Positions 1 to 61,554 of a DNA stretch of 61,554 nt are shown here, in pieces. Position numbers and translations under genes: made by a program. Under the pieces are notes generated by a model. The model was given only the letters and a program-made list of their open reading frames with translations, searched no databases and had not been told where the DNA came from. This stretch comes from Flavobacteriales bacterium TMED113. Its GTDB lineage: Bacteria; Bacteroidota; Bacteroidia; Flavobacteriales; TMED113. Every line of letters starts with the position of its first letter. Positions within the stretch are counted from its first letter, which is position 1. The stretch covers positions 2,560 to 64,113 of the forward strand of contig NHFO01000063.1 in the NCBI GenBank assembly GCA_002170235.1, read 5' to 3'.

Positions 1-330
1 AGAGAGAATAAGACCAATGCTATCAAAGAGTTTGGAGCAAGAAATAATATATGGAGAATTAAGAATTGTGGAGGATTTGGACAGACTAACAAAAACTCAT
101 ACAAACACCCTGCAACAATGCCAGAGGAGTTAGCAAGAGGACATATTCAGACATGGAGCAATGAGGGAGACATAGTTGTTGACCCATTCATGGGTAGTGG
201 CACAACAGCACAAATAAGTATAGAAGAGAATAGACAATTCATAGGATTTGAGATTGACCCAACATATCACAAAATGTGTGAGGATAGAGTCAGACCACTA
301 TTGGATAATTTGCTCACTCGATTATGTTAA
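1..330 (+). CDS. DNA methyltransferase (N6-A/N4-C type), C-terminal part
   Basis: The reading frame is open from the first base, so the gene begins upstream and only the last 109 residues are seen. The sequence HPATMPEELARGHI followed by DPFMGSGTT (from base 181) is the S-adenosylmethionine-binding motif I and its preceding segment, as found at the C-terminal end of beta-type amino-methyltransferases. It is followed by GFEIDPTYH, the usual end of that fold. The catalytic DPPY/NPPY motif and the target-recognition region lie outside the window, so target and base specificity cannot be read. No restriction endonuclease is visible next to it, so it is probably an orphan phage methylase. The next gene overlaps its end by 7 bases, suggesting co-translation. 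Confidence 0.85.
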   Translation, partial: RENKTNAIKEFGARNNIWRIKNCGGFGQTNKNSYKHPATMPEELARGHIQTWSNEGDIVVDPFMGSGTTAQISIEENRQFIGFEIDPTYHKMCEDRVRPLLDNLLTRLC

Positions 331-530
331 GACAAAAATGTAGAGTCACACCTAAGAGTGAGAAAGCAAAATACACCTATGCTACATATTTAAACAGTAA
401 TTCTATTTGTCACATTGAGCATAAAAGAAGTCATAGGTGGTTTCTAAGTGCTATCCAAAACCCTGATTACTGGTTTTGGGTGGATGTGCCAATAGATAAA
501 AACTGGGATTATCAGGAGATTACATCATGA
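324..530 (+). CDS. hypothetical protein, 68 aa
   Basis: I do not recognise this protein. It is basic at the N terminus (MLRQKCRVTPKSEKAKY) and aromatic at the C terminus, with several Trp and Tyr (NPDYWFWVDVP). The start lies inside the end of the methyltransferase gene (ATGTTAA) and the stop overlaps the next start (ATGA), so it sits in a tightly coupled operon. The overlaps and the coherent composition are the main reasons for calling it real. Confidence 0.6.
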   Translation: MLRQKCRVTPKSEKAKYTYATYLNSNSICHIEHKRSHRWFLSAIQNPDYWFWVDVPIDKNWDYQEITS

Positions 531-724
531 GAAATGGAGCAGACCTAGATTCACTAGATGGAAAACAACAGCAACAAAGATTTAATTGTTGGCATTGTGG
601 TAGTGAGTTAGTGTGGGGTGGTGACCACGATTTAGATGACTACACACAGGATTATGACATTGTATCTAATTTCCAATGTATGAATTGTGAAACATTTGTA
701 GAGGTATATCACAAATGTCAGTAG
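527..724 (+). CDS. small zinc-ribbon protein, 65 aa
   Basis: Two CxxC knuckles are visible: CWHCG near residue 22 and CMNC near residue 52, separated by an acidic stretch rich in Asp. This spacing fits a zinc ribbon, a fold used for nucleic-acid or protein contacts. Similar short CWHCG-type proteins are common in T4-type cyanophage genomes, from my memory of the family. The start codon overlaps the upstream stop (ATGA), and the next gene begins inside its last codons. The molecular partner is unknown. Confidence 0.7.
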   Translation: MRNGADLDSLDGKQQQQRFNCWHCGSELVWGGDHDLDDYTQDYDIVSNFQCMNCETFVEVYHKCQ

Positions 725-921
725 AAGGAGAAAATGCAAGAAAGAAAGCAGATAAAATGCTAGAGGCATTGCACAAATATAATAGTCAGATATTAGGAGA
801 CGATTTAGAGGATTCTATTATAGAGAGAATTAATAATGCTAAAGAATTAAAGGACATACTCGATAAAGCAAGAGAGCAACAACTCAAAGCAAAAGAGGAT
901 TATTTAAACAATGAAACTTAG
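715..921 (+). CDS. hypothetical coiled-coil protein, 68 aa
   Basis: This is a short, highly charged, Lys/Glu-rich protein predicted by eye to be almost entirely helical (NAKELKDILDKAREQQLKAK). It has no recognisable domain. It overlaps the zinc-ribbon gene by 10 bases and the oxygenase gene by 11 bases, which places it firmly in the same operon. Confidence 0.6.
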   Translation: MSVEGENARKKADKMLEALHKYNSQILGDDLEDSIIERINNAKELKDILDKAREQQLKAKEDYLNNET

Positions 922-1489
922 AGGTATGGATTACAAAGTTATTGATGACTATTTTCCTGAGTGGATAGTCAGTAGTATGTCAACATACTTTGAGAATTTC
1001 CCAGTATCATGGTCTAATTCAAGTAGAGAATCATATAAGGAAGGTGGGAGATTCTTTGGTAATATGTGCATACAGCACGAAGACTGGACAATACCAGAAG
1101 ATTTAAGAATATGGTTTTTCCAATATCTTAATGGGTGTGTTATGAATGACCTATTAAAAGGACAAGTCACGAATGTTAATAGAGTATTGGTCAATGGTCA
1201 GGTTAAAGGACAAGATGGAGTTAACCATAAAGATTGTGACATCAAGGACGAGGGATATAAAACATTAATATATCATGCTCATGGACATGAGGGAGACACA
1301 GTTATAGGAGTGGATAGAGTGCCATTTAAAGAGGGGAGAATTGTTATATTTGATTCATACTTGACACATAGAGGTGAAGCACCAAAAGATGATAGTTATA
1401 GAGTTAGTCTAGGTTGCATCTACACATATATTGAGGAGAATGATATGACAGTTGACAAAGCGTCACAACTATTAGACAAAAACAAATAG
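911..1489 (+). CDS. 2OG-Fe(II) oxygenase-like protein, 192 aa
   Basis: The protein carries the iron-binding facial triad of 2-oxoglutarate/Fe(II) dioxygenases: His106 and Asp108 in NHKDCD, then His153 in LTHRGEAP. Arg164 in SYRVSLG is suitably placed to bind the 2-oxoglutarate carboxylate. The segment GRIVIFDSYLTHRGE is typical of phage and prolyl-4-hydroxylase-like members. Such genes are frequent in cyanophages; proposed roles are protein or nucleic-acid hydroxylation, but the substrate is not known. Two starts are possible, 911 and 926; 911 is chosen because it overlaps the upstream gene in the pattern used throughout this operon. It is the last gene of the run before a non-coding, structured stretch. 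Confidence 0.8.
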   Translation: MKLRGMDYKVIDDYFPEWIVSSMSTYFENFPVSWSNSSRESYKEGGRFFGNMCIQHEDWTIPEDLRIWFFQYLNGCVMNDLLKGQVTNVNRVLVNGQVKGQDGVNHKDCDIKDEGYKTLIYHAHGHEGDTVIGVDRVPFKEGRIVIFDSYLTHRGEAPKDDSYRVSLGCIYTYIEENDMTVDKASQLLDKNK

Positions 1490-1507
1490 TTGTGTTATTA
1501 TATAAAT

Positions 1508-1656
1508 GGGGAAACAAACCCACTTGACATAAGACTTTCAAGGTAGCGGATACCATAACTGAGTTAGTACTTCCTTTGAGAAGTGAAGCACCTCTTGACC
1601 TGTTATGCATACGCTTTTAAATCGAACTTAAGCAGTCCAGTCGGTTTTGTTTCCTC
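1508..1656 (+). ncRNA. candidate structured RNA closed by a long-range helix
   Basis: The 188-bp gap between genes is bracketed by complementary ends: GGAAACAAA at 1510-1518 pairs with TTTGTTTCC at 1646-1654. The helix extends outward by a G-U and a G-C pair and inward by two G-C pairs past a bulged T. Inside are smaller hairpins: CTTGA/TCAAG at about 1523-1541, GGTA/TACC at about 1542-1554, and ACTTC/GAAGT at about 1569-1584. There is no sizeable reading frame. It could be a stable small RNA, a leader of the downstream membrane-protein genes or a processing element. It does not match any riboswitch or tRNA class I can recall. It also contains GTAC and GAAC, tetranucleotides absent from the preceding 1.5 kb of coding DNA. 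Confidence 0.4.
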
Positions 1657-1677
1657 TCACTAATATAATTAAATACT

Positions 1678-1830
1678 ATGAGCAACGTACCATTTTATGA
1701 CTTTCCACACTCACCTATATTGTTAATAGGTTTCGGTGGTATATTGACAGCACTTGTAGTGTTATTTGTTGCTAACAACAAATACTTTAATTCACCACTT
1801 AATAGGGATAGACCTAATGGTAAAGCATAG
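1678..1830 (+). CDS. small membrane protein, 50 aa
   Basis: This short frame begins MSNVPFYDFPHSP, then has one clear hydrophobic span (ILLIGFGGILTALVVLFVA, about residues 14-32) and a polar, basic C terminus. It looks like a single-pass membrane protein with a short N-terminal tail. The next gene starts inside its last codons (1817), which supports translation. Its function is unknown; small phage membrane proteins often act on the host envelope, but nothing in the sequence shows this. Confidence 0.6.
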   Translation: MSNVPFYDFPHSPILLIGFGGILTALVVLFVANNKYFNSPLNRDRPNGKA

Positions 1831-2059
1831 CACACCTGATGTAGTTTGTTTGAGAGTTGAGAGACTCACAAATATAATTACACAGTTGAAGAAAGCAATG
1901 GACATGAATGACAAAGCAACACCAAATGATCTTGGTTGCCAGTCATTACAATTTGCAAATAACTACACTAATCAAGTATTATTAGATGTCATTGCTGATT
2001 TAAAGAGAGATTTAGATATTCACGATTTAACATTTAAAGATTATCAATACGATTTATGA
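1817..2059 (+). CDS. hypothetical protein, 80 aa
   Basis: The start at 1817 (MVKHSTPDVVCLRVERL) is preferred over an upstream in-frame codon at 1766, because the upstream part lies wholly inside the membrane-protein gene. The product is mostly helical, with RLTNIITQLKKAMDMND and VLLDVIADLKRDLDIHD segments. It is not recognised. The stop overlaps the next start (ATGA). Confidence 0.6.
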   Translation: MVKHSTPDVVCLRVERLTNIITQLKKAMDMNDKATPNDLGCQSLQFANNYTNQVLLDVIADLKRDLDIHDLTFKDYQYDL

Positions 2060-2196
2060 AACCTTATTTACTATACATTTTTATAGGAGTTGTATTTTTA
2101 ACTCTCATTCGCACATCATTTAAAATTGATAGGAGCGAGAGAAATCAGAGATTATCTGATGAGTTATGCAAGATTGATAAAGTATATTGCAAATAG
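2056..2196 (+). CDS. small membrane protein, 46 aa
   Basis: The translation begins MKPYLLYIFIGVVFLTLIRT, a hydrophobic N-terminal segment of about 15 residues that could be a signal anchor, followed by a charged tail (SFKIDRSERNQRLSDELCK). It is coupled to the preceding gene by an ATGA overlap and followed by a strong terminator-like hairpin, so it ends the operon. Function unknown. Confidence 0.55.
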   Translation: MKPYLLYIFIGVVFLTLIRTSFKIDRSERNQRLSDELCKIDKVYCK

Positions 2197-2217
2197 ACCA
2201 ATTCACAAACTGTCACA

Positions 2218-2255
2218 ACCTCTAATGCGTAACAACGTGTTAGGGGTTATTATAT
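2218..2255 (+). terminator. rho-independent terminator candidate
   Basis: ACCTCTAA at 2218-2225 pairs with TTAGGGGT at 2240-2247 (one G-U). The stem continues after a small internal loop with CGT/ACG and an AACA loop. The helix is followed by TTATTATATT. It lies between the small membrane protein and the helicase and would separate the two transcription units. Confidence 0.6.
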
Positions 2256-2274
2256 TAATAGTTAAAGTTTATTA

Positions 2275-3507
2275 ATGCCAATTAGGTTAAGACCACATCA
2301 AGAGAAAGCACTACAGTCAATGCAACTTTCTAATCATGGTCAGATTATTGTGCCTACAGGTGGCGGTAAGACTTTTATAATGATACAGCACGCTAAAGAG
2401 TTATTTGAAGCAAACTTCAAAACTGTTGTTGTAGTCGCCCCTCGTATTCTACTAGCAAATCAGTTATCAGCAGATTTCTTAGAGCATATTGATAATGTTG
2501 ATGTCTTACACGTCCATAGTGGAGAGACACATCACACTAGCACAACTAAAACTGATATGATTGAAGAGTGGCACTTAGGTAGTGTCAAGAATCAAATCAT
2601 CTTCACAACATATCATTCATTACATAAGATTACATCTAGTCCTAGTATTGAAGTGAGTGTGATGTATTGTGATGAAGCACATAACGCTTGCACTAAAAAC
2701 TTCTTTAATGCAGTAAGTGATATGACTATGAAGTGTGACCAAAAGTATTTTTTTACAGCAACACCTCGTATATCACATAAGCACGATAGAGGTATGAATA
2801 ACAGTAAAGTATTCGGTCATGTATTAGAGAGTGTGCCTGCACCAACTCTTATTGATAACGGTAGCATCATACCACCAACTATTGTGCCATTCACAACTTC
2901 ACATGAAGTTGATAAGAAGAATCCACATTTAGTGCATAGTGATGCAGTCCAAGATATATTAGACGGACTAAGTGTTGAAGCATCATCTAAAGTATTAGTT
3001 GCAGTCCCGAGCAGTCGTATCCTTAGAAACATTCTAGTGGAGACTGATATATTGCCCCAACTTGCCGAGCGTGGGTATAACGTATTACACATAACAAGTA
3101 AATTTGGAGCATATGTCAATAAGACTAAAGTCAACAGAGAGAAATTCTTTGAGACACTTACAAAATGGGGTAAAGACCCACTTAAGAAGTTTATAGTGTT
3201 TCATTACTCTATATTATCTGAAGGTATCAATGTAAGTGGATTGACTCATGCTATATTATTGAGAAATCTAAATGTTGTCGAAATGGCACAAACAGTAGGT
3301 AGAGTAATTAGATTACATCCTAAGGATGCAAGAGACATTGCTAGTGGTGTTATACCTAAGGGTCAGTTATCACTCTATCGTAAACCAACTGGTTATGTAA
3401 CTATACCTATTCATAGGAATCATGGTAAGCACACAGTCAAGAGACTACAGAGAGTTGTAGATGAGATATTTGTTAAAGGTATCCCTGCAACAGCATATGT
3501 GGGATAA
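2275..3507 (+). CDS. SF2 DEAH-box helicase, UvsW-like
   Basis: A 410-residue superfamily 2 helicase. Visible motifs in order are RPHQEKAL (residues 6-13), Walker A VPTGGGKT (26-33), DEAH (133-136), TAT (161-163), SEGINV with the following LTHAILLRN in domain 2, and motif VI QTVGRVIR (339-346). The compact two-domain layout resembles the recombination/repair helicase UvsW of T4-type phages, although the N-terminal extra domain of T4 UvsW is not evident. The expected role is ATP-driven remodelling of DNA branches during phage replication. It stands alone between a terminator (2218-2255) and a hairpin (3511-3534). The gene contains no GATC, GAAC, GTTC or GTAC at all. Confidence 0.85.
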   Translation: MPIRLRPHQEKALQSMQLSNHGQIIVPTGGGKTFIMIQHAKELFEANFKTVVVVAPRILLANQLSADFLEHIDNVDVLHVHSGETHHTSTTKTDMIEEWHLGSVKNQIIFTTYHSLHKITSSPSIEVSVMYCDEAHNACTKNFFNAVSDMTMKCDQKYFFTATPRISHKHDRGMNNSKVFGHVLESVPAPTLIDNGSIIPPTIVPFTTSHEVDKKNPHLVHSDAVQDILDGLSVEASSKVLVAVPSSRILRNILVETDILPQLAERGYNVLHITSKFGAYVNKTKVNREKFFETLTKWGKDPLKKFIVFHYSILSEGINVSGLTHAILLRNLNVVEMAQTVGRVIRLHPKDARDIASGVIPKGQLSLYRKPTGYVTIPIHRNHGKHTVKRLQRVVDEIFVKGIPATAYVG

Positions 3508-3510
3508 ATG

Positions 3511-3534
3511 TGTGACAGTTATATTAGTGTCACA
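3511..3534 (+). terminator. TGTGACA hairpin, copy 1
   Basis: TGTGACA (3511-3517) and TGTCACA (3528-3534) form a 7-bp perfect stem with a 10-base AT-rich loop, just after the helicase stop. The same 24 bases recur exactly at 5527-5550, and variants occur at further gene ends. There is no strong T tract, so it may terminate, or stabilise a 3' end, or act as a protein-binding operator. Confidence 0.55.
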
Positions 3535-3575
3535 TCATTCCACACGTTGCACTCAAAATGCAGTATATTAAATAT

Positions 3576-3626
3576 ATCAGGTTAATGCTTACATTAACAA
3601 GTGCTAAGGGATACCTTTAACCTGAT
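3576..3626 (+). promoter_or_regulatory. competing inverted repeats in a leader
   Basis: ATCAGGTTAA at 3576-3585 is perfectly complementary to TTAACCTGAT at 3617-3626. GTTAATG at 3581-3587 is also perfectly complementary to CATTAAC at 3592-3598 with a CTTA loop. The two helices share bases 3581-3585, so they exclude each other. A third small hairpin, AAGG/CCTT, lies at 3606-3617. The ribosome-binding site AAGGAG of the next gene follows about 10 bases later. The layout is that of an attenuator or switchable leader. Confidence 0.4.
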
Positions 3627-3648
3627 AATCATTCTTAAGGAGACATCA

Positions 3649-3831
3649 ATGTCATCACTACATCACGAAACATTACTAGAAACTTGTTATGATGAGTCAT
3701 GGGAGGATTTTCGTAAAGAGAATAATCTAACTGATGACCAGTTATATGCAATGGAGCAAAACTCTCAGTATGGTTACTTACCAGTAATTGCAGAGGAAGC
3801 AACAAAACGATTTGAGGAGTTATGCCAATGA
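3649..3831 (+). CDS. hypothetical acidic protein, 60 aa
   Basis: The start at 3649 is chosen because AAGGAGA lies 7 bases upstream; an in-frame GTG at 3601 would run through the structured leader. The product (MSSLHHETLLETCYDESWED...) is acidic and helical and not recognised. It heads a run of overlapping small genes, with the next start in an ATGA overlap. Confidence 0.6.
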   Translation: MSSLHHETLLETCYDESWEDFRKENNLTDDQLYAMEQNSQYGYLPVIAEEATKRFEELCQ

Positions 3832-3959
3832 ATAAGTATGAAATCACATGGGATGAGCAATACCAACTCATCAAATTATATGATTTACTTAGGGATAATG
3901 GCATGATGAATGAGTTACCTAACGAAATCGAAACATTTTTTGAAAAACTATTGGATTAA
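3828..3959 (+). CDS. hypothetical protein, 43 aa
   Basis: A very short frame (MNKYEITWDEQYQLIKLYDL...) overlapping the upstream stop by ATGA. It is acidic, probably two short helices. Support is the coupling and the downstream gene starting 6 bases after its stop. Confidence 0.5.
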   Translation: MNKYEITWDEQYQLIKLYDLLRDNGMMNELPNEIETFFEKLLD

Positions 3960-3964
3960 TTACT

Positions 3965-4177
3965 ATGTTTACTAAGGAAGAATTATTTTACATTATTGAT
4001 TGTCTTGACCAAGACTATTATAATATCAAGGACATTGAGGACTTAGAGTTACAAAGAGCAGAATTATCCAAAAATGCCCGCATATGCTCTATATTATCTG
4101 ATTTAATTGATGTTGAAACAGCAAAAGAAGATAAGATAGAAAAGGCAAGAGCGAAGCAACCCCAAGCGGAGTGGTAA
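3965..4177 (+). CDS. hypothetical protein, 70 aa
   Basis: The protein (MFTKEELFYIIDCLDQDYYN...) is helical and acidic, ending in a Lys/Ala-rich stretch. TKEELFYIIDCL is a pattern I associate with short conserved proteins of T4-type cyanophages of unknown role. The next gene begins directly after it. Confidence 0.6.
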   Translation: MFTKEELFYIIDCLDQDYYNIKDIEDLELQRAELSKNARICSILSDLIDVETAKEDKIEKARAKQPQAEW

Positions 4178-4179
4178 CT

Positions 4180-4380
4180 ATGGAGCAACTAGCAGTATGG
4201 TTAACAAGTGATGAAATAATTGAAATTACTGATTCACTTCAATGGATAGCAGAAGATGAAGACAAAGAAGTCCAAGAGAATAATAAAGACTTAATTAACG
4301 CTTATCACAAACTACAAAAACAACTCAAGGATTATCATGAAGCAAGAGCAACTTTCATTAACAAATCAACAACTAAGTGA
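4180..4380 (+). CDS. hypothetical protein, 66 aa
   Basis: The ATG at 4180 (MEQLAVWLTSDEIIEITDSL) is preferred to the GTG at 4171, with GCGGAGTGG upstream as a possible ribosome-binding site. The SDEIIEITDSLQWIAEDED segment resembles the TKEELFYIIDCL segment of the gene before it, so the two may be diverged duplicates. Function unknown. Confidence 0.55.
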   Translation: MEQLAVWLTSDEIIEITDSLQWIAEDEDKEVQENNKDLINAYHKLQKQLKDYHEARATFINKSTTK

Positions 4381-4591
4381 ATTAAGAGATTTATTTGTTG
4401 ATAGATACGTTGATAATATGTCAACTAAAGATTTAGTTGAATATGTATATAATGATATGAGTCATTATGTTGAAGGTCAATCTGATGAAGCATTTATTAA
4501 TGATTGTAAGGACTACTGGGGAGATATGCTTCCAGAAATTGTTGAAGAAGTCAAGGAAGTATGTGACAGTATTAATAGTGGCACATTATGA
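4337..4591 (+). CDS. hypothetical protein, 84 aa
   Basis: It starts inside the previous gene, after AAGGATTATC, which provides a ribosome-binding site. The product (LSELRDLFVDRYVDNMSTKDL...) is helical and acidic. The last codons are part of the degenerate TGTGACA hairpin, which therefore encodes the C-terminal residues CDSINSGT. The gene at 6273 ends in a similar way (DSLESGT). Confidence 0.6.
   Translation: MKQEQLSLTNQQLSELRDLFVDRYVDNMSTKDLVEYVYNDMSHYVEGQSDEAFINDCKDYWGDMLPEIVEEVKEVCDSINSGTL
4562..4585 (+). terminator. TGTGACA hairpin, degenerate copy inside a 3' coding end
   Basis: TGTGACA (4562-4568) faces TGGCACA (4579-4585), six of seven positions paired. It lies within the last codons of the upstream gene and about 26 bases before a promoter-like block, repeating the hairpin-promoter order seen at several other junctions. 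Confidence 0.4.
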
Positions 4592-4610
4592 TGCACATAG
4601 CGTAAACTAT

Positions 4611-4632
4611 CCATTATAATATTAATATAATC
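4611..4632 (+). promoter_or_regulatory. TATAATA repeat promoter block, copy 1
   Basis: CCATTATAATATTAATATAA matches the recurrent block, preceded by AGCGTAAACTAT, which also recurs upstream of other copies. The start codon at 4645 follows at the usual distance. No TTGACA box is seen. Confidence 0.5.
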
Positions 4633-4644
4633 ACACAGAGAAAC

Positions 4645-4833
4645 ATGAAAAAAGGATTAAACATTGAAGTCACATCATCACAGTATAGTTTTCTATACGA
4701 AGTATTAATGGAAGCATACTCAAATGATGTTGCAGAGCAAAAAGGTTGGGATGTGCAAACTTTCGATAACCTAGTTGACAATGTTTGCCAAGCAACAGAA
4801 ACTAACCTATCCAACTCAGTAAAAGGTATTTAA
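4645..4833 (+). CDS. hypothetical protein, 62 aa
   Basis: First gene after a promoter block. The protein (MKKGLNIEVTSSQYSFLYEV...) has no recognised domain and is largely helical. The next gene starts 2 bases after its stop. Function unknown. Confidence 0.6.
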   Translation: MKKGLNIEVTSSQYSFLYEVLMEAYSNDVAEQKGWDVQTFDNLVDNVCQATETNLSNSVKGI

Positions 4834-4835
4834 TT

Positions 4836-5009
4836 ATGATTTACTCAGATTCATTAGACTTCTTATGTGACCTATATGAAGCATATCTCACTAAGCACTC
4901 ACTTCCAAAATTGAGTGCTGATGAGCAAGATTTATCAGTAATGACAGTTGAGCAAAGTGAGTGGATTACAAATTTTTCAAATCTATGGGAGAAAGTCCAA
5001 AATGCATGA
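4836..5009 (+). CDS. hypothetical acidic protein, 57 aa
   Basis: A short frame (MIYSDSLDFLCDLYEAYLTK...) directly after the stop of the preceding gene. It overlaps the following start by 8 bases. It is acidic and aromatic and is not recognised. Confidence 0.55.
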   Translation: MIYSDSLDFLCDLYEAYLTKHSLPKLSADEQDLSVMTVEQSEWITNFSNLWEKVQNA

Positions 5010-5175
5010 CCCTAAAGTTAAAATTCTAGAAGTCAAGGACGATTCTTTCGACATCTATGAATTACTATCTCGAAGAGATAGAGCAACCATTAATGAGATT
5101 ATTCTTGACACTATAGCATCAAAAGGTTATGATGTTGACAACTTTGATTATGATTTACGAGGTTTTGTATTATGA
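5002..5175 (+). CDS. hypothetical protein, 57 aa
   Basis: The start at 5002 (MHDPKVKILEVKDDSFDIYE) is chosen over 4948, which would lie fully within the neighbouring gene. The product is acidic, with the helix RDRATINEIILDTIASKGYD. The stop overlaps the next start by ATGA. Function unknown. Confidence 0.55.
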   Translation: MHDPKVKILEVKDDSFDIYELLSRRDRATINEIILDTIASKGYDVDNFDYDLRGFVL

Positions 5176-5507
5176 GGACATACATTTTTAAAGACTATCT
5201 TGCAATGGACAATGGCAAGTTTTTACCACTTCAAACAATAGAGAGCGAAGAATTCGGTAGGCACTTTTTTATTGATATTGCATTTGAGTTTATATCCGCC
5301 CCAAGTCTCAAATCTGGTGGATATGATGAAACACAGTTGGATTACGTTAGTAACTGGACTGACCTCGAAGGTGTTAACTTAAATGAGTTATTTGACATTA
5401 ACAGAAAACTATGTTGGAGTCAATGGCAAGAAGATAAAGATAAAGCACACACAGAAATGTGTGAATATATGGAAGCAGTTGAAAATGGAGAAATTGAATA
5501 CCTATGA
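5172..5507 (+). CDS. hypothetical protein, 111 aa
   Basis: Coupled to the upstream gene by ATGA. The sequence starts MRTYIFKDYLAMDNGKFLPL and is rich in aromatic and acidic residues, with a helical acidic C terminus (MCEYMEAVENGEIEYL). No family is recognised. It is the last sizeable gene before the exact second copy of the TGTGACA hairpin. Confidence 0.65.
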   Translation: MRTYIFKDYLAMDNGKFLPLQTIESEEFGRHFFIDIAFEFISAPSLKSGGYDETQLDYVSNWTDLEGVNLNELFDINRKLCWSQWQEDKDKAHTEMCEYMEAVENGEIEYL

Positions 5508-5590: not shown

Positions 5591-5604
5591 TATAGCAATC
5601 AAGG
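5576..5604 (+). promoter_or_regulatory. TATAATA repeat promoter block, copy 2
   Basis: CCACTATACTATTAATATAG followed by CAATCAAGG is a variant of the recurrent block. The AAGG at its end doubles as ribosome-binding site for the ATG at 5609. Confidence 0.5.
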
Positions 5605-5608
5605 AATT

Positions 5609-6271: not shown

Positions 6272-6272
6272 A

Positions 6273-42315: not shown

Positions 42316-43809
42316 ATGGCAAAGCAAAATCTTAATATAGGCTCTTCAGCGAATGATGGCACAGGTGACAGCCTGCGAGATGGAGCTATAAAATTAAATT
42401 CAGTCATCGATGAGTTATATACCAATCTTGGTAATGACACTAATTTACAGATAAACGTCGGGTCTCCCAGTGCAGGACAATTCCTAAAATGGAATGGGTC
42501 TCAGTTTGCTGAGGGTGCTTTAGATTCTTTAACAGCAGACCTTGATGTAGCAGGAAACAAAATTATATCATCTGCTAATGGTGATATAACTGTAATGCCA
42601 AATGGCACAGGAGATATTAAATTCTGGGCTGGTGGCACAGGTGCTGCATTAACATATGTTGATGGTGCTGATGGTAAGTTAAAGTATAGCAATGTGTTTG
42701 CCACTACAGGAGATTTACCAGATAACACTGTGCATCATGGTATGTTTGCGTATGTGTCTGGTGACACTAAAGCAAGATTTGCAACATCAGGCGGTTGGGT
42801 AAACATAATAAGTGAGAGTAGTAGTATAGGTCTTCTTAGTGATGTTGACTTAACTGTAGGTGGTGGTGCATCTGATGGACAAGTATTGAAATGGGATGGC
42901 ACTAATAGTTACTGGTATCCTGCCAATGATGAGACTGCAACAGGTGGTGGAGGTAGCACACAAAATTTATTTGAAACTGTAAACGCAGATAGTGGAGCAA
43001 CCACAGCATCTGCTGCAACTGATACTTTAACTATTGCGGGTGGCACAAACATATCCACTTCAATAGCTGGTGACACAGTTACTATCAATATGACAGGGAC
43101 ACTAGGTGCTCCTGACCAAAATGTATTTACTACTATAGGGACAGATAATAATAGTAAGACTGCAAATAGTGCATCTACTTTAATTAATTTTGTAGGTGGC
43201 ACTGGTATATCAACAGATGTTGCAGGAGATAATTTAACAATTACAAACTCCTCACCTAACGTTGTGCAAAATGCATTGCAATCTGTATCAGGTGACAGTG
43301 GAAGTTATACTGCTGTAGCTGCAACATCTGGTGTTGAGGTTTTGGGTGGTACTGGTGTTACAACTGCTTTGGTTTCTAATCAGCTAACGATAACAGCTGA
43401 GTTAGGCATGAAGATTGGACAGAATAAAAATGAAAATGGAAAAGTAATATTCTGTGATAACGGTACCTTTGAAAGAGTTGCTTCTTCTGGGATAGGATGG
43501 AATATTGGGGCAAATGGTTCTTCAGCATATACTTTCAATGGAGCTGGTGTTGCTACAACTGATGCCAACCCAACTCTCTATTTGTATAGAGGATTTACTT
43601 ATAGATTTAATAATACAACAGGTGCATCACACCCATTTGAAATCAAAGTATCAGCAGGAGGAGCTTTAATTACTGATGGTGTAAGTGGTGATACCGAAGG
43701 AATTCAGTATTACACTGTGCCTATGGATTTGGCAGCAGGCACAACTTACAAATACCAATGTGGAGTTCCTTCACACGTCAACATGATAGGTGACTTAGTA
43801 ATCGTATGA
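42316..43809 (+). CDS. tail-fibre protein with cupredoxin-like C terminus, 497 aa
   Basis: The N terminus, LNIGSSANDGTGDSLRDGA then IKLNSVIDELYTNLG, is a common attachment motif of tail-fibre and whisker-like proteins. Three tandem units of about 45 residues follow (ADSGATTASAATDTLTIAGG; GTDNNSKTANSASTLINFVG; SGDSGSYTAVAATSGVEVLG; about 43000-43400). The last 80 residues look like a cupredoxin: SHPFEIKV, then YKYQCGVPSHVNMIGDL, giving His...Cys-x4-His-x2-Met in the order of type-1 copper ligands. It would be a trimeric fibre with a copper-protein-like tip. Its stop overlaps the next start by ATGA. Confidence 0.7.
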   Translation: MAKQNLNIGSSANDGTGDSLRDGAIKLNSVIDELYTNLGNDTNLQINVGSPSAGQFLKWNGSQFAEGALDSLTADLDVAGNKIISSANGDITVMPNGTGDIKFWAGGTGAALTYVDGADGKLKYSNVFATTGDLPDNTVHHGMFAYVSGDTKARFATSGGWVNIISESSSIGLLSDVDLTVGGGASDGQVLKWDGTNSYWYPANDETATGGGGSTQNLFETVNADSGATTASAATDTLTIAGGTNISTSIAGDTVTINMTGTLGAPDQNVFTTIGTDNNSKTANSASTLINFVGGTGISTDVAGDNLTITNSSPNVVQNALQSVSGDSGSYTAVAATSGVEVLGGTGVTTALVSNQLTITAELGMKIGQNKNENGKVIFCDNGTFERVASSGIGWNIGANGSSAYTFNGAGVATTDANPTLYLYRGFTYRFNNTTGASHPFEIKVSAGGALITDGVSGDTEGIQYYTVPMDLAAGTTYKYQCGVPSHVNMIGDLVIV

Positions 43810-45650
43810 CACGTACAGTTCCTGGCTCTGGTGCACAAATCGTCCCGATGTTTAACAGCGTCTACGGTGTTAGAGAGGTGTACGTTACTGCCAATGGAAG
43901 TGGATATGATTCAAATGACCCACCCAGACTTCGTATAGGAAACTGTGGCACACCTATTAGAGAGGCAGTGTTAAGACCAGTTATAGCAGGAGTTGCAGGA
44001 GAAATTATAGCAGTAGAGGTATTAGACCCAGGTGAGGGATATGACCCTTTACGTTTAAAGATTGAGGATGAAAATTCTAATGGATATGCTACTGGTAATG
44101 TATATTTAAAGGATGATGGTGCTATAGACTTTATCCAGATGACTGGATTTGGTGATAATTATTTTGATTCTACTGCAGTTATAGAAGGTGGTGGAGGTAG
44201 TGGTGCAGAATTAGTCCCTATCACAGGACTGCTAACAGGTTTATCAATTCAGCAGCAAGGTAGAAACTATACAGAAGAAGATGTAAATATTATTATTTCT
44301 GGTGGAGGTGGACAGGGTGCAACTGGTGTTGCTTCTGTAAACCAGTTTGGTGAGGTATCTTCTATATCTTTGACCAATGCAGGAGAATTCTTTGAGACAC
44401 CACCACTCATACAAATCATAGGTGGTGGTGGAAGTGGTGCATCTGCTGCAGCATTTATTGACTTAGGTGTTATCACAAACATCGACCTTATATCAGGAGG
44501 TGGCGGATATCAGGGAACACCGAGTATTATCTTCACAAGAGACACTGACCTGATCCGTACTGCAAGAAATCGTCAATCTTTAAACAGTGTCCTATACAAT
44601 CTGTCTGGTATACTTACAAACGTTGACTCGAATGACACAACTATCCACATAGAAACTACTGACCCATATCCAGGATCAGGTAAGTTTTTGGTTGGAAGAG
44701 AAGTTATTAGATATACAGGTAAAACTGCAACATCATTTACTGGATGTGATAGAGGTGTAAATTTCCGTTTTGACCAGAAGGTTACATTAGATAGTTTACA
44801 AGATGATGCAAATACAGGTATCACACAGTATGATTTCTCTGTTACTGATAAGGTAAGACGTGTTGTTGAATCATCTAATAACAGAGTTGCTATTGTATAT
44901 GACTGGGATCCTACTACTAGGTCACTATATCTAACATTCCAAGTTGATGAATTAGCATTCATTGATGGTGGTAGGTCTAATGAGAAATCTCAAATCATAG
45001 CATTTGTAGGAGGCACATCTGGGTCTACTGGCACTGGTGTTCCTCCACATAACTTATTAGAATTAGAGGGAAATGATATTGTCACATTTACAGATCCCTT
45101 AGGATTAATTCTTAATAGAAAATTTGAAGATGATGATGAATTGGATGGAGCTGGTGATGGAATTATTGACCTTATTAATACTGGCACTGAATATGAAAAC
45201 CAAATTAATCTAGATGGTGGCATCGCCTCGTCTAAATATGGTATTGAGGAAACATTAGGTGGACAAAACACCACTCTATTCCAAATTGGAGACCAGATAT
45301 ATGATGGTAATGCAACACCTCTAACCGCAACTATCCAAGCTGCGGGTGAATTGGGAGACGGTGATACTCATACATCAACCGCAACTATTATCATTACATA
45401 TAACACTACTACCCTGTTTAACATAGGAGAGGTAGTAGAAGGATTAACATCAGGTTTAACTGCAACAACAACCACTCGTGTAACAGGTCCTAAATCAGGA
45501 CAATTTACACTAACAGTTGAAAATATTGTAGATAATGACCCAACTTATAAGTTTACAGTCGGTGAAATCTTGAGAGGAAACTCCTCAGGAGCACAAGCCG
45601 ACATCATTTCTGTTGAATATACAACGTTTATCAGAAATGAAGAAGACTAA
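43806..45650 (+). CDS. GSGY-repeat virion protein, 614 aa
   Basis: The N-terminal 260 residues are GSGY-type repeats (VYVTANGSGYDSNDPPRL; EVLDPGEGYDPLRL; IDLISGGGGYQGTPSIIF) with GGGGSGA turns. The C-terminal third holds two modules of the type FxxGExVxGxTSGA (FNIGEVVEGLTSGLTA; FTVGEILRGNSSGAQA). It sits just before gp8 and shares both repeat types with the giant protein and gp8. Probably a baseplate or fibre connector. It contains four of the fifteen GATC sites in the window. Confidence 0.65.
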   Translation: MTRTVPGSGAQIVPMFNSVYGVREVYVTANGSGYDSNDPPRLRIGNCGTPIREAVLRPVIAGVAGEIIAVEVLDPGEGYDPLRLKIEDENSNGYATGNVYLKDDGAIDFIQMTGFGDNYFDSTAVIEGGGGSGAELVPITGLLTGLSIQQQGRNYTEEDVNIIISGGGGQGATGVASVNQFGEVSSISLTNAGEFFETPPLIQIIGGGGSGASAAAFIDLGVITNIDLISGGGGYQGTPSIIFTRDTDLIRTARNRQSLNSVLYNLSGILTNVDSNDTTIHIETTDPYPGSGKFLVGREVIRYTGKTATSFTGCDRGVNFRFDQKVTLDSLQDDANTGITQYDFSVTDKVRRVVESSNNRVAIVYDWDPTTRSLYLTFQVDELAFIDGGRSNEKSQIIAFVGGTSGSTGTGVPPHNLLELEGNDIVTFTDPLGLILNRKFEDDDELDGAGDGIIDLINTGTEYENQINLDGGIASSKYGIEETLGGQNTTLFQIGDQIYDGNATPLTATIQAAGELGDGDTHTSTATIIITYNTTTLFNIGEVVEGLTSGLTATTTTRVTGPKSGQFTLTVENIVDNDPTYKFTVGEILRGNSSGAQADIISVEYTTFIRNEED

Positions 45651-55110: not shown

Positions 55111-55113
55111 AAT

Positions 55114-55148: not shown

Positions 55149-58100
55149 ATGGCAAATAGACTACAACTACGACGTGACGGTGCACAGCAATGGGCTAACG
55201 TCAATCCGATACTTGCTCAGGGTGAGTTGGGTATTGAGATTGATACTTCACGTATTAAAATAGGAGACGGTGTTACAGCATGGAACTCTCTAAAGTATGA
55301 GAGACCTATTGAAACCGAATCAAACACCGCTAACACTCTTGTTAAAAGGGATGCTGACGGTAACTTTGAAGCGGGTGCAATTACTGCATCTGTAATTGGT
55401 AATGCTGCAACTGCTACACGTCTTGCTAACGCTCGTCAGATATCACTTGGTGGTGATATGTCTGGAGCAGGTACTTTTGATGGGTCTGCAAACTTAACCA
55501 TCACAGCAGAATTAAACTATGTGGTCGCACTACCACATTACGATGCAAATAACTTAGACGCACAAGGCACATATTCTCAGGTAACTATCGACTCTAGAGG
55601 TCGTATTGTAGATGCTACAACTCCTACATCTTTAGCAGCGTATGGAATTGCTGACGCTCAACCATTAGATAGCGACTTAACATCTCTATCTAACATGACC
55701 ACATTCGGTCTGATATCACGTCAGGCAGAAGGCACAATAGTTAGTAGGACAATCACTGGTGGTAGTGGACGTGTTATTGTCCAGAATGGTAATGGTCAAT
55801 CATCTAACCCATTCTTAGACCTTGCTGATACAACAGTTGTTGTTGATAACTACAACCCAATAGGTAATGCAGATACACCTCTTATCTCTGCTACCACAGG
55901 TACTGAAACTGTTAACACAACCAACTTCAACGTTGATAGATATGGTCGTTTAACATTCGCACAGACTTCTCCTATTGCAACTGCAACACAGGGAAGTTTT
56001 GCTGCAGCATATAGTAACTCTTCAGCATATCCAAGATATTCTAAGATAAAGAATAGTTCTGACGTTTTATATGAAGCAATATTAGATATCGGTGCAGGAG
56101 TAGGAGAGCCTACTCATACAGATTCATCTGATGCAGGAAGTTGGAGATACTTAGGGACTGCTATAGCACCACAAAAAGGTATAGCAGCATTTAACCAAGA
56201 AGATTTTGATGTAACTGCATGGGATGCAGGAAACAGTATAGAAGGTGGTTTCGTAACCATCGCTGCTGCGGGTGTAGATAATACTCAACTACAAAATAAT
56301 CGCGTTTCGTTTGCTGATGGTAACTCACATGAGCATTTTGAATTAGACCAAGAATTAACTCCTGTTACTGGTTATAGAGGATTTAATTACCTTAACTATA
56401 CGAAGGTAAATGATACAACTGGTAACTTACTCTTTAGTGTTAATAATACAGGTGATGGTAGTGGTGGGACTCAACAGTTAGTTACTAACAAAACAGTCAC
56501 AGTTGGTGTAGATACTGTTGGAGGACAATCAACTGGTGTATTCTATATTGATGGTGTAGAAACACCTGTCTTGAATGTCAAGAGAGGAGTAACATACGTC
56601 TTCAATCAGAATGATTCCACTAATGCTACCTATGGTGGTGGTCAACCTCACCCATTAATGTTTAGTCTTACAGAAGATGGAGACTTAGTTCCTGGTGGTG
56701 CTCACTACATGCCAGGGATTGTCTACACATTAGATGGTGTTGAGAAAACTATGGCAGAGTATACTGCTGAGTTTGCTTCTGCTACAGTTCGCACAGTAAC
56801 ATGGATAGTGCAGGCTGATGCACCCGCAACTCTCTACTACTGGTGTCATCATCATACAGGACAAGGTAACAGTATATCTCTCACTGATGGTGGTGCAGGA
56901 GAAGTTGATATTAATGTAAGGACTTACTTCTCTGATACAGACATCACTTTAGATGGTGCAATCGACCAGATACTAGACAAGACTGGTGATGGTAATCTAG
57001 ACTTTAAACTCACCCAGAATACTACGATGCCTAGAGCACTTAGTATTTCATCTACTAACTCAGGTAGTGGTGACGCTAACATCAATATAACATCTGATAA
57101 TGATATCACTATTAGTGCAACTAATGTTTCTAATAGAGTAAACGTAGAAGGTTATCAATTCCAAGATAATACCTTATCTACAACTAATGCCACAATGGTA
57201 TTAGACCCTAATGATGACGATGCAGTCACAGGTCTAGTCCAAATTCGTGGTGATTTACAAGTTGATGGCACAACCACGACTGTCAACTCCACAACTATTA
57301 CTGTGCAAGACCCTATCATCACACTTGGTGGTGAGGATACTTTAGTAGTTGACGATAACAAGGATCGTGGTGTAGAATTTAGGTACTATGATACACAGGA
57401 AAGATTTGGTTTCTTCGGTTGGGATGAGAATTACGCGGACTCTAACATGTGGTCTGGCACTGGCGGCTATCGCTTCCTCTACGACGCGACCAATGTCAGC
57501 GAAGTTTACTCTGGCACTGACGCTCCTGTTATTGCAGGGAATCTCCGTCTAACAACCAATACGTCTTCTACTTGGAAGACACCTACAACTGGCACACTGG
57601 TAGTAACTGGTGGTGCAGGCATTTCTGAAAACCTTAACGTTGGTGGCACAACTCACTTGAATGGTGACGTTGAAATAGATGGTGCTGTTGACATAGATGC
57701 CAACTTCGCAATTAGAGATAATACTACTGATAAGTTTACTGTTGCAAGTGCGACAGGTAACACAGTTATTCAAGGTACAGTTGACATTCAGTTACAGACA
57801 AATATAACTGATGGTCTTCTTATACAAGCAGACAATAAAAAATTCGAGATTCAAACTGCGGGTGGCACTAGCGTATTTGATATTGATACAGATAATGGTA
57901 ATACACATACAGATGGCACACTGGATGTGGATAGTGGAGTAACATTTAACAGCACTCTTGATGTAGATTCTGCTGTTACATTCAATTCAACCTTAGACGT
58001 TGATAATGATTCAGTATTCCACGATGATATTACACTCGATACTACTGGTAAATTCTTCACGATAACCAATGGTAGTGGCCAGACATTTAAAGTGTCTTCT

Positions 58101-61100
58101 ACAAATGGTAATACAGACATAGAAGGTAGTCTAAATGTCGGTGGTGTCAATACTTTTGAAAGGACAAATAATATAGTTGTTGACTCTACAACATCAGAAT
58201 CTGCAATCACATTGACCAGTGGTGGTAACGCAACATATGCGGGTGGTGTTAATATTGATAAAGATGTCAGAGTGGGCACTGACTTATATGTTTCTGATAG
58301 AATCGTAGTTAAGGACGCAGGCACTGCTCGCACACGTCCTTCTCTACTTAATAACGTTGATATAAAATATCGTCAGTATGTTGGAGCATCAGCAGCACAC
58401 AATGCTTCATTTGCTAATGATGCAGATGCTAACTTAAGAGTTGCGGGTGGTGCAGGAATAGTTGCAGACTTACATGTTGGTGATGACTTCTACGTTGGTA
58501 AAGTAGCAACTAATGACACTGTTGAATTCTCTATCTTAGGAGAATCAGGTGCTACCACAATAGGACGTGTCGGTCAAGGAAATGCCACAGATGGCTCGCT
58601 AACTGTGCATGGATTTGTTACAATGAATGAGCGGGTAACAATCAACGCTCCTTTGACGACGATTGGCGATGCTAACACAGATGTCCTAACAGTAAATGCA
58701 GTCTCTCAATTTACAGATGATGTAACTGTCGACGGTAGTTTAACTGTTAATACAAATGCTTTAATAGAGGGTAACCTCACTGTTAATGGCACAACTACAA
58801 CTGTAAATTCTACAGTAACCACTATCGATGACCCTATCATCACAGTTGGTGGTGACACTGCTCCTTCATCAGATGATGCTAAGGATAGAGGTGTTGAGTT
58901 TAGATACTATGATTCACAAGCACGTCTTGGATTCTTTGGTTGGGATAACTCAGCAGAAAGATTTGCAGTTTATCATGCAGCAACTAACAGTAGTGAAGCA
59001 TTTAGTGGCACTAGGTCTGGTATCGACGCAGGCTCTATAAAATTATTTGATACAACAAATGCAACGAATTCTGCTACAGGTACTCTCATCGTTGGTGGTG
59101 GCGCGGGTATTGGTCTTGACTTACACGTCGGTGACGACCTCATCGTCGTTGACGATGGAAGCTTTGGTGGAAATGTCGACATCACTGGCACGCTCGATGT
59201 AACTGATGACTTTGCTGTTGCTGCTACATTCACAGTAGATGCACAGACAGGTAATACATTTACTGCAGGGACATTCCAAGTCAATGGTAATACAACGATT
59301 GGTAATGCTGGCTCTGATGCACATAGCGTATCAGGTACTGTCCAGTTTAACCATGCGATAACTTCTACAGATATTACTGCGGATAACATTAAGATTGGTG
59401 TAGATGGAGCAACAGAAATTTCTACTACCTCTGGAAATCTAATTCTAGATTCACAAGGTGGCACAGTTAATATTACAGATGATGCTGACGTAGACGGAGA
59501 CTTGAATGTTGATGGTAATCAGCAACTAGATGGCACATTAACTGTTGATAGCACATCAACCTTTAAAGACCATGTATTAATAGAAGATAATAAGTATTTA
59601 AAATTAGGAACTGATACTGATTACAGTATAGGATATGTTACTGCTATTAATTCAGTTTTTGAAACTGTTGCTACTGGGAATCAGAAAATTACCCAAGCAG
59701 ATGGCATCACTTTACAAGACAATAGTGGTAATAAATTCTTTAAAGGAGGAAGTACTAATACTAAATTATATCATGTAGGAAGCTCAAAACTTACCACAAC
59801 TGCGACTGGTGTTACTGTAACTGGTCTAACAACCACTGATACTCTCTTAGTCAACACAACTTCTACATTTAGCGGTGCGATAACTTCAACCGATATCACT
59901 GCTGACAGTATTAAGATTGGTGTTGATGCTGCAAACGAAATCAGCACTACTGCGGGTAACTTAGTATTAGACTCTCAGGCAGGCACAGTTTCAATTACGG
60001 ATGACGTAGATATTAGCGGTGAGCTAGAAGTTACTGGCCAAACAAAAATCACTGACACCCTAATCATAGACTCAACCAATGAGCAGTTTATTGTTAGGTC
60101 TTCTCTAGTTGATAGGTTTACTGTTGACACAGATAATGGTAATACTTTCATTGCAGGCACTGCGACAATAGAAGGTCTTACAACTATCAATGATGACTTA
60201 GGTGTAACAGGTGCTGTTGACTTTGACACTACATTAAACGTAGATGGTCAAGCAGTATTCCAAGATAACTTAATTCTTAATGCAGATAATAAAGCATTCA
60301 AGGTACAAAATAATTCTAACGTTGACCAGTTTACAGTTGACTCTGACAACGGTAATACTGTAATAGGTGGCACAGCGACTGTTGATGAATCAATATCAGT
60401 CGGCACAACTTCTCTACTAAGTGGCAACGTAACTGCTGATGCAAACACAACTGCAACTCGTCTTGCAGGAAGTGCAGCAATCATGGTACCTAACGGTGGT
60501 ATCACAGTATTTGAAGATTCATTCTTCGGAGAGGATATATTTGTAGGACCTGACCAAGCACAGACAATTACATTGTTTGGTGCTACAGGTAACATCACAG
60601 CAGATGGCACAGTTTCTGCATCAACATTTAGTGGCACAACTGGTAACATCTCCACAATAACCACTACATCTAACATCAACGTTGGTGGTAGTGTTATCGT
60701 CAACACTAACAAGTTTATTGTTACAGGGTCAAGTGGTAACACTGATATTGCAGGTACTCTAGACGTTGGTGGTAGGACTATTATTGATGATACTCTTAAC
60801 GTCACTAATGATGTTGACTTTGATGCTAACTTAAATGTTGATGGTAATCAGCAACTAGATGGCACACTGACTGTAGATAGCACATCAATATTCAAAGATA
60901 GTATGGTAATTAAGGGGTCTACTAAGACACTTAAATTACAAAATGGTAGTAACACAACTAAAGTTGAATTGCAATCTACTTCTGGTAATGCAACATTCGC
61001 AGGATTAACAACAACAAATACTTTAGATGTAACTTCTAACTCAACTATCGGTGGCACACTTGGTGTGACAGGACAGATAACTGGTAACATCACTGGTGAG

Positions 61101-61554
61101 GTAACTGGTAATGCTTCTTCTGCATCATTGGTTGATGTATCTGAGACTGCATCTTCAAACCTAACATACTTCCCAACATTCGTTTCTGCTTCATCTGGAA
61201 ACACTGAGATAAGGACTGACTCACAAAACTTACAATACAATCCATTTGAAAACAGACTTACTGTTACTAACTTCAAATCAACAACTGACTTTGAGATTCA
61301 AGGTAACTTAAACGTTACTGGAGCATTAACATTCTTCCAGTCACAGGTTGGTAGTATTGCAAACCATGATACTGATGCATTAACAGAAGGCACAACTAAT
61401 CTATACTTTACTGATGAAAGAGTTGATGATAGAGTTAACGCTCTAATCACAGGTGGCACAGGTATTACTGCTACTTACGATGATGCAGGAAATATCTTAA
61501 CATTGAGTGCAACTCAGGCAGATATCAACACTGATAATATTACTGAGGGTAGCA
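55149..61554 (+). CDS. long tail-fibre protein, 3'-truncated (2135 codons seen)
   Basis: The start MANRLQLRRDGAQQWANVNP, then LAQGELGIEIDTSRIKIGDG, is the attachment domain found in many fibres and in major tropism determinant-like proteins. A cupredoxin-like domain lies at about residues 450-585 (QPHPLMFSLTEDGD, LYYWCHHHTGQGN). The shaft is repetitive: NLNVDGNQQLDGTLTVDS-type units, and two copies of a GVEFRYYDxQxRxGFFGWD module. Near the window end LTEGTTNLYFTDERVDDRVN is a common fibre motif. The frame stays open to the last base. It is the presumed receptor-binding distal fibre; its tip is outside the window. Confidence 0.85.
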   Translation, partial: MANRLQLRRDGAQQWANVNPILAQGELGIEIDTSRIKIGDGVTAWNSLKYERPIETESNTANTLVKRDADGNFEAGAITASVIGNAATATRLANARQISLGGDMSGAGTFDGSANLTITAELNYVVALPHYDANNLDAQGTYSQVTIDSRGRIVDATTPTSLAAYGIADAQPLDSDLTSLSNMTTFGLISRQAEGTIVSRTITGGSGRVIVQNGNGQSSNPFLDLADTTVVVDNYNPIGNADTPLISATTGTETVNTTNFNVDRYGRLTFAQTSPIATATQGSFAAAYSNSSAYPRYSKIKNSSDVLYEAILDIGAGVGEPTHTDSSDAGSWRYLGTAIAPQKGIAAFNQEDFDVTAWDAGNSIEGGFVTIAAAGVDNTQLQNNRVSFADGNSHEHFELDQELTPVTGYRGFNYLNYTKVNDTTGNLLFSVNNTGDGSGGTQQLVTNKTVTVGVDTVGGQSTGVFYIDGVETPVLNVKRGVTYVFNQNDSTNATYGGGQPHPLMFSLTEDGDLVPGGAHYMPGIVYTLDGVEKTMAEYTAEFASATVRTVTWIVQADAPATLYYWCHHHTGQGNSISLTDGGAGEVDINVRTYFSDTDITLDGAIDQILDKTGDGNLDFKLTQNTTMPRALSISSTNSGSGDANINITSDNDITISATNVSNRVNVEGYQFQDNTLSTTNATMVLDPNDDDAVTGLVQIRGDLQVDGTTTTVNSTTITVQDPIITLGGEDTLVVDDNKDRGVEFRYYDTQERFGFFGWDENYADSNMWSGTGGYRFLYDATNVSEVYSGTDAPVIAGNLRLTTNTSSTWKTPTTGTLVVTGGAGISENLNVGGTTHLNGDVEIDGAVDIDANFAIRDNTTDKFTVASATGNTVIQGTVDIQLQTNITDGLLIQADNKKFEIQTAGGTSVFDIDTDNGNTHTDGTLDVDSGVTFNSTLDVDSAVTFNSTLDVDNDSVFHDDITLDTTGKFFTITNGSGQTFKVSSTNGNTDIEGSLNVGGVNTFERTNNIVVDSTTSESAITLTSGGNATYAGGVNIDKDVRVGTDLYVSDRIVVKDAGTARTRPSLLNNVDIKYRQYVGASAAHNASFANDADANLRVAGGAGIVADLHVGDDFYVGKVATNDTVEFSILGESGATTIGRVGQGNATDGSLTVHGFVTMNERVTINAPLTTIGDANTDVLTVNAVSQFTDDVTVDGSLTVNTNALIEGNLTVNGTTTTVNSTVTTIDDPIITVGGDTAPSSDDAKDRGVEFRYYDSQARLGFFGWDNSAERFAVYHAATNSSEAFSGTRSGIDAGSIKLFDTTNATNSATGTLIVGGGAGIGLDLHVGDDLIVVDDGSFGGNVDITGTLDVTDDFAVAATFTVDAQTGNTFTAGTFQVNGNTTIGNAGSDAHSVSGTVQFNHAITSTDITADNIKIGVDGATEISTTSGNLILDSQGGTVNITDDADVDGDLNVDGNQQLDGTLTVDSTSTFKDHVLIEDNKYLKLGTDTDYSIGYVTAINSVFETVATGNQKITQADGITLQDNSGNKFFKGGSTNTKLYHVGSSKLTTTATGVTVTGLTTTDTLLVNTTSTFSGAITSTDITADSIKIGVDAANEISTTAGNLVLDSQAGTVSITDDVDISGELEVTGQTKITDTLIIDSTNEQFIVRSSLVDRFTVDTDNGNTFIAGTATIEGLTTINDDLGVTGAVDFDTTLNVDGQAVFQDNLILNADNKAFKVQNNSNVDQFTVDSDNGNTVIGGTATVDESISVGTTSLLSGNVTADANTTATRLAGSAAIMVPNGGITVFEDSFFGEDIFVGPDQAQTITLFGATGNITADGTVSASTFSGTTGNISTITTTSNINVGGSVIVNTNKFIVTGSSGNTDIAGTLDVGGRTIIDDTLNVTNDVDFDANLNVDGNQQLDGTLTVDSTSIFKDSMVIKGSTKTLKLQNGSNTTKVELQSTSGNATFAGLTTTNTLDVTSNSTIGGTLGVTGQITGNITGEVTGNASSASLVDVSETASSNLTYFPTFVSASSGNTEIRTDSQNLQYNPFENRLTVTNFKSTTDFEIQGNLNVTGALTFFQSQVGSIANHDTDALTEGTTNLYFTDERVDDRVNALITGGTGITATYDDAGNILTLSATQADINTDNITEGS
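57266..59040 (+). repeat. duplicated RYYD/GFFGWD module in the tail fibre
   Basis: Copies at 57266-57540 and 58786-59040 share TTTVNST, DPIIT.GG, KDRGVEFRYYD, GFFGWD, DATN/AATN and SGT in the same order. The first copy includes a stretch with 53% G+C and C-ending codons. Confidence 0.7.
59505..59537 (+). repeat. 33-bp exact repeat in the tail fibre, copy A
   Basis: The 33 bases beginning AATGTTGATGGTAATCAGCA are identical to 60834-60866 and encode NVDGNQQLDGT. The similarity continues into TVDSTS and FKD. Confidence 0.75.
60834..60866 (+). repeat. 33-bp exact repeat in the tail fibre, copy B
   Basis: Identical to 59505-59537, 1.3 kb downstream in the same frame. Points to recent internal duplication or conversion within the fibre shaft. 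Confidence 0.75.

Follow-up and report, generated by a model that had tools for sequence, protein, structure and literature searches.

Genome-wide avoidance of GWWC-type words accompanies a putative nuclease and methyltransferase cassette in T4-like cyanophages

Introduction

The restriction-modification (R-M) enzymes of chloroviruses are usually assigned a role in host DNA degradation. Described viral pairs include R.CviAI/M.CviAI of chlorovirus PBCV-1 and mel_015/mel_016 of melbournevirus, each directed at GATC, and the text searched on marseilleviruses has their R-M systems sparing host DNA while being able to cut related viruses (PMC7253447). The cassette that we describe here in T4-like cyanophages resembles these systems, as far as that text goes, in belonging to a lytic virus, in placing a small restriction nuclease next to a methyltransferase (MTase) and in its patchy, lineage-linked distribution. 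The role proposed there, degradation of host or rival virus DNA, is also the one proposed here. The cyanophage cassette differs in residing in a tailed phage, in having a predicted nuclease without sequence match in Pfam, NCBIfam, PADLOC or the PDB, and in a degenerate WW target, which is deduced from avoidance. A further difference is that the carrier's own genome is strongly depleted of the word, of which the searched text on marseilleviruses (PMC7253447) makes no mention.

Avoidance of restriction sites has been described for phages as well as for bacteria that bear R-M systems (Gelfand and Koonin 1997, cited in PMC8262939). As in those cases, so far as the citing text describes them, short restriction words are under-represented here; unlike in them, the avoided word would belong to a predicted nuclease that the virus itself encodes, and a change of nuclease allele brings a change in the set of words avoided. 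With Type II R-M systems of the PvuII/EcoRV kind the cassette shares the order of the gene pair, a nuclease predicted to be EcoRV/PvuII/NaeI-like, a D-x8-ExK motif and a beta-class MTase with a TSPPY motif. Two hallmarks of such systems are present, an active site of restriction-endonuclease (REase) type, with structural support, and an adjoining MTase gene. Unlike these systems, the cassette has no sequence similarity to known REases, appears to address a degenerate 4-bp word and is phage-borne.

Bacteriophage T4 degrades host DNA with EndoII and EndoIV, its own DNA carrying modified cytosine. A cyanophage nuclease would likewise have to discriminate phage from host DNA, by site loss and presumed site-specific methylation rather than by base substitution; to our knowledge, cyanophages have no T4-like cytosine modification. 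Within an incomplete coverage of the literature, we met no earlier account of a cyanophage cassette of this kind.

Results

Depleted words on a cyanophage contig

Contig C54 is 64,113 bp long and part of a 1.3-Mb bin; the window, the whole 61,554-nt stretch analysed here, comprises its sequence from base 2560 onwards, window base 1 being C54:2560. The gene content of C54 is that of a T4-like cyanophage (Kyanoviridae), and by helicase its nearest isolate is P-TIM40. The bin lacks photosystem I genes (PsaA/PsaB), and GWWC words are not avoided on the rest of its contigs, so C54 has been mis-binned into a non-cyanobacterial genome, and for the same reasons the bin is uninformative about the host. 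Cyanophage contigs also occur in other non-cyanobacterial assemblies, one of them, 188 kb long and P-TIM40-like, being part of a Nonlabens genome (L310, NZ_RMVE01000006.1) and another of a Euryarchaeota MAG (L311). A single ORF of 7474 aa at window 18265-40689, a giant baseplate or structural gene, is syntenic with P-TIM40_99. The features of the window that bear on the depletion are:

Window 2275..3507, plus strand: helicase of T4-GC_36 type, the landmark of the variable locus that houses the cassette
Window 1..61554, no strand: depletion of GATC, GAAC/GTTC and GTAC by Markov and shuffle counts, throughout the 64-kb contig
Window 44552..45096, no strand: locally relaxed stretch within ORF 43806-45650, where four of the 15 residual GATC sites are clustered

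Against a second-order Markov expectation for single-strand counts, the window holds 15 GATC instead of 230 (7%), 57 GAAC plus GTTC instead of 430 (13%) and 87 GTAC instead of 243 (36%). The sequence-only reading that preceded this work had listed the 15 GATC sites by eye, with every coordinate exact, and had called the helicase gene free of all four words, where we find 0 and expect about 15-17. It had also named synonymous shuffling as the test that could overturn its claim. Across 200 codon shuffles of 16 window genes (46 kb), the observed and shuffled counts were 12 and 160 for GATC, 19 and 157 for GTTC, 26 and 150 for GAAC, and 71 and 186 for GTAC; for each word, 0/200 shuffles came as low as the observed count, and the depletion stands. 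Word counts in relatives showed it to be lineage-specific. Avoidance is weakest around C54 40-48 kb, and nowhere on the contig are GATC and GAAC less avoided than in the tile that holds the GATC cluster (0.19 and 0.26).

Codon choice that depends on the next base, also claimed from the sequence, proved to be the route. Before C, Asp is encoded by GAC 147 times and by GAT 7 times, as against 250 and 638 before other bases, and Glu by GAG 47 times and GAA 9 times, as against 260 and 445; Asn and Ile codons have no such next-base effect in the window, and in P-SSM4 this kind of choice is absent. The words enriched beside GATC in the window are GATG/CATC and GAAG/CTTC. A longer target that includes flanking bases was rejected, there being no strong flank preference.

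Other words are also short in the window, namely CCGG (0 against 22 expected), AGCT, GGCC and AGCC, and their avoidance is common to nearly all cyanophages examined. Nearly every marine cyanophage in the sample, comprising all of the Prochlorococcus phages and most of the Synechococcus phages, lacks CCGG and is short of RGCY words. This depletion is a shared pressure unrelated to the cassette.

The putative cassette

The cassette starts 1.2 kb ahead of the window, and in related loci it lies within 10 kb of the helicase gene. Its two genes are:

C54:1392-2024, plus strand, about 0.5-1.2 kb 5' of window base 1: predicted nuclease of about 206-210 aa (phrog_11812, "unknown function")
Window 1..331, plus strand: 3' part of the cassette MTase, whose full ORF, C54:2056-2890, is open with two ambiguous codons

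The homologues in P-TIM40 are PTIM40_59 (nuclease) and PTIM40_60 (MTase). The MTase matches Pfam N6_N4_Mtase (E 4e-40) and is of the beta class with a TSPPY motif. Its best PDB matches are m4C methyltransferases, 8s9m being the closest, and it is probably of the m4C kind itself.

The nuclease family gave no match in Pfam, NCBIfam or PADLOC, and no sequence-level relative was found in the PDB. G88, D90, E99 and K101, within a D-x8-E-x-K motif, are invariant in 26 aligned homologues. AlphaFold models of two alleles, window type and P-TIM40 type, reached pLDDT 85 and 88, and the leading Foldseek matches of both are Type II REases (EcoRV, ThaI, DpnI, NaeI and PvuII). The E-values are only about 4e-3 and the TM-scores 0.3-0.4, and it is the agreement among the matches, together with the motif, that carries the fold assignment; on that footing the phrog_11812 protein is predicted to be a small PD-(D/E)XK nuclease with an EcoRV/PvuII-like fold. 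The window-type and P-TIM40-type nucleases are only about 30% identical and the MTases 74%, as expected of a fast-evolving restriction nuclease beside its MTase. Profile comparison shows homology to the nuclease (probability 98%) for another group of upstream genes, which has diverged further (L244, L263, L273-L277).

In most carriers the nuclease gene is 5'-adjacent to the MTase gene or overlaps it, and in some the two are 7-8 kb apart; they co-occur wherever the sequence is complete. We found no clear MTase-only genome; apparent gaps come from a nuclease 7-8 kb off or from a contig end. Both a nuclease and a methylase had been proposed as things to look for, and the phage encodes the predicted nuclease and its adjoining MTase. 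Another MTase, the common N6_N4 'dam' PTIM40_74 (T4-GC_38), was rejected as the cause, being also present in the non-avoiders P-SSM4, P-SSM7 and P-SSM2.

The cassette occurs on viral contigs, many of them from IMG/VR, and in 17 phage genome records, with the window-type allele in separate helicase clades. A scan of genome contigs for a bacterial homologue of known specificity gave only three matches in bacterial and archaeal assemblies, all of which look like phage contigs or fragments; from these sequence searches the nuclease family is apparently confined to cyanophages.

Avoidance follows the cassette

Among 80 contigs with related helicases, those closest to the window (L001-L003) avoid GATC, GAAC and GTAC, the P-TIM40 group (L004-L010, L077 and L079) avoids GAAC and GTAC and keeps GATC, and the other marine cyanophages do not avoid GAAC and mostly do not avoid GATC. 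Complete P-TIM40 has 104 GAAC against 1245 expected and 272 GTAC against 1336, with GATC at expectation (both-strand counts for palindromes).

Orthologues of the cassette MTase at 69% identity or more are found only in GAAC-avoiding phages. In a sample of 94 phages with distinct helicases, GAAC observed/expected (O/E) spans 0.03-0.47 (median 0.13) where the cassette MTase is present (n=32) and has a median of 0.97 where it is absent (n=62), absence in IMG/VR loci meaning absence within about 20 kb of sequence. The sole mismatch is L003, an avoider in which no cassette MTase was found and whose sequence breaks off at a distance of 2.1 kb from the helicase. A tblastn search placed the nuclease in 17 phage records, and these are exactly the ones with the MTase at 60% identity or more. 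P-TIM40 alone of these had been examined for avoidance before the prediction was tested. Regions of four isolated Synechococcus phages predicted to be avoiders, S-MS29, S-H35, S-MbCM6 and syn9, gave GAAC 0.13-0.20, GTAC 0.16-0.29 and GATC 0.90-0.95, and the nearest cassette-free relatives (S-MbCM100, S-RIM50, S-SM1 and WH25-B) gave GAAC 0.93-1.01.

Cassette state has changed at least seven times. The four supported independent contrasts comprise three that are concordant and none that is discordant; with only three to four such contrasts, a sign test cannot reach significance. Some carriers avoid GAAC only in part (L280-L285, 0.56-0.83; L267, 0.87), and these may be recent or relaxed cases. 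In the 199-kb phage G001, the 10-kb tile that contains the cassette stands at GAAC 0.09, GATC 0.22 and GTAC 0.13, and GAAC is 0.35-0.6 in most of the remaining tiles, a pattern that recent arrival of the cassette from an adapted donor would produce.

GATC and the nuclease allele

Avoidance has two layers, with GAAC/GTTC lost by all carriers, GTAC by most and GATC by some. Among helicase-distinct carriers (L270, on a long branch, left out), GATC O/E is 0.54 or less in all 11 with a window-type nuclease and 0.80 or more in the 20 with other types, 0/20 of which avoid it. The switch falls in separate helicase clades, and 3/3 independent pairs agree. In the nuclease tree, carriers of the window type and of the L275-L277 type avoid GATC and nearly all others keep it. 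GATC loss thus follows the nuclease allele and not the universal Dam gene. D12 Dam is present in 16/16 isolates tested, in the window-type carrier G001 and partly in L098 (0 GATC), so its presence does not separate keepers from avoiders and we rejected it as the simple reason that sister phages keep GATC. The sequence-only reading had taken GWWC as one degenerate target. This is plausible for the window's own clade; it is not general, since GATC separates from GAAC/GTTC/GTAC in relatives.

Other loci and other words

S-RIM50 and WH25-B avoid GATC and have no phrog_11812 cassette. A second locus, analogous to that cassette but unrelated to it, gives each of them an additional D12 methyltransferase with a strong match and, after it, a candidate nuclease:

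L325:2734-4216 (WH25-B): D12 MTase and nuclease candidate beside the helicase, the candidate belonging to phrog_15364 and annotated MutH
L324:2942-4263 (S-RIM50): D12 MTase and nuclease candidate beside the helicase, the candidate matching PDDEXK_11

Two further carriers of phrog_15364, S-RIM8 (L327) and S-IOM18 (L328), were predicted to avoid GATC and gave 0.15 and 0.34; across all four phages with such loci GATC is 0.15-0.34. This second, independent case suggests that avoidance of the phage's own nuclease may be general in T4-like cyanophages.

Further words are missing elsewhere. S-SM1 (L305, L326; NC_015282.1) has no GTAC on 68 kb, and 0 against 299 expected (both strands) on 45 kb. A search of it for the cassette MTase was negative; the ORF just after its helicase (L326:13522-14034) contains a D...ESK stretch and has no counterpart in any other phage of the collection. 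CATG is fully absent from a marine cyanophage clade (L018, L023, L032, L033, L075 and L133), with 67-96 expected in most members, among which no nuclease was identified. S-BM3 (L198, OQ319121.1) has 46 TTAA against 302, 15% of expectation, and a gene annotated 'restriction endonuclease' (T4-GC_685) that gave no nuclease match in Pfam.

Discussion

We propose that these phages carry a restriction-modification-like cassette with a degenerate GWWC target and avoid the sites of their own nuclease, a reading to which we give a probability of about 0.8. We infer cleavage, exact target, methylation and purpose of the cassette alike. In the proposed model, the nuclease would recognize a 4-bp word, GAAC/GTTC and usually GTAC, with the window allele also taking GATC, that is, GWWC, and the adjoining MTase would probably methylate the same word. 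During infection the nuclease may cut unmethylated host DNA, rival DNA or both; destruction of host DNA and exclusion of rival phages would be equally plausible purposes. A fully efficient MTase should make avoidance unnecessary, which counts against this reading. We suggest that methylation of fast-replicating phage DNA is imperfect and each unprotected site costly, so that selection would favour synonymous codons that rid the phage genome of the word. The cassette would pass between cyanophage lineages, each recipient genome then gradually shedding the word.

The sequence-only reading had put forward either evasion of a host nuclease or protection from a phage nuclease as the explanation. 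Avoidance is seen only in carriers of the nuclease and MTase pair and follows the nuclease allele, which argues for the latter: the virus most likely avoids its own cutter and not a host defence. Phages are known to lose the sites of host enzymes, a phage MTase is a classic anti-restriction device, and the avoidance of CCGG, GCGC and RGCY common to nearly all cyanophages here is what host or environmental pressure would produce. A host enzyme for GWWC, with the MTase serving as anti-restriction and its neighbour incidental, is nevertheless improbable, because the words persist in cassette-free phages of the same hosts. GAAC is 0.08-0.20 in carriers and 0.85-1.07 in non-carriers, comparing P-TIM40 with P-SSM4 and P-RSM6 on NATL2A, and S-MbCM25/S-MbCM6 with S-MbCM100 and WH25-B on WH7803 (S-MbCM25 being represented in the word counts by its 99.5%-identical relative S-MbCM6); the NATL1A phages P-SSM7 and P-SSM2 do not avoid GAAC either. 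Moreover, the avoided set changes with the nuclease allele though the MTase stays about 70-95% identical, the neighbour has a predicted restriction-endonuclease fold with an invariant active site, and the two genes keep company where sequence is complete, even at 7-8 kb in some genomes. That the methylation itself is harmful, being mutagenic or read by a modification-dependent host nuclease, would fit with the MTase being the best conserved of the markers that go with avoidance, yet we give this only a slim chance: GATC loss tracks the nuclease and not the MTase, and neither the synonymous replacements (GAT to GAC, GAA to GAG) nor the words enriched beside GATC form one mutational product.

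The sparing of GATC by phages of the P-TIM40 type can be read as a narrower specificity or, alternatively, as a Dam-sensitive enzyme. It is conceivable, if rather unlikely, that all alleles cut GATC and that phage Dam protects it in the lineages that keep it, as P-TIM40 and other GATC-keeping isolates do encode a D12 Dam-like MTase. The same gene in avoiders and keepers alike speaks against this, but a Dam-insensitive nuclease of the window type would still fit. Chance, composition or codon bias has low G+C in its favour and nothing more, and the shuffles and the next-base effect missing from P-SSM4 leave it a negligible probability.

Beyond the GWWC-type cassette, we lean slightly towards a broader picture in which exchangeable nuclease cassettes, with or without an MTase, sit in the variable locus beside the helicase of T4-like cyanophages, each imprinting its word on the genome as a genome-wide hole. 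If true, avoided words would read out specificities, GWWC-type for phrog_11812, GATC for phrog_15364 and perhaps GTAC, TTAA and CATG for others. Missing words thereby suggest a way to find site-specific nucleases of abundant marine viruses and to read their targets, and a WW-degenerate 4-bp cutter, if real, would be an unusual reagent. An uncharacterised cyanophage protein family gains a testable function, and a large genome-wide codon constraint would be explained by a gene carried on the phage itself. The cassette also bears on how cyanophages may destroy host DNA yet spare their own, and on phage-phage competition within one cell.
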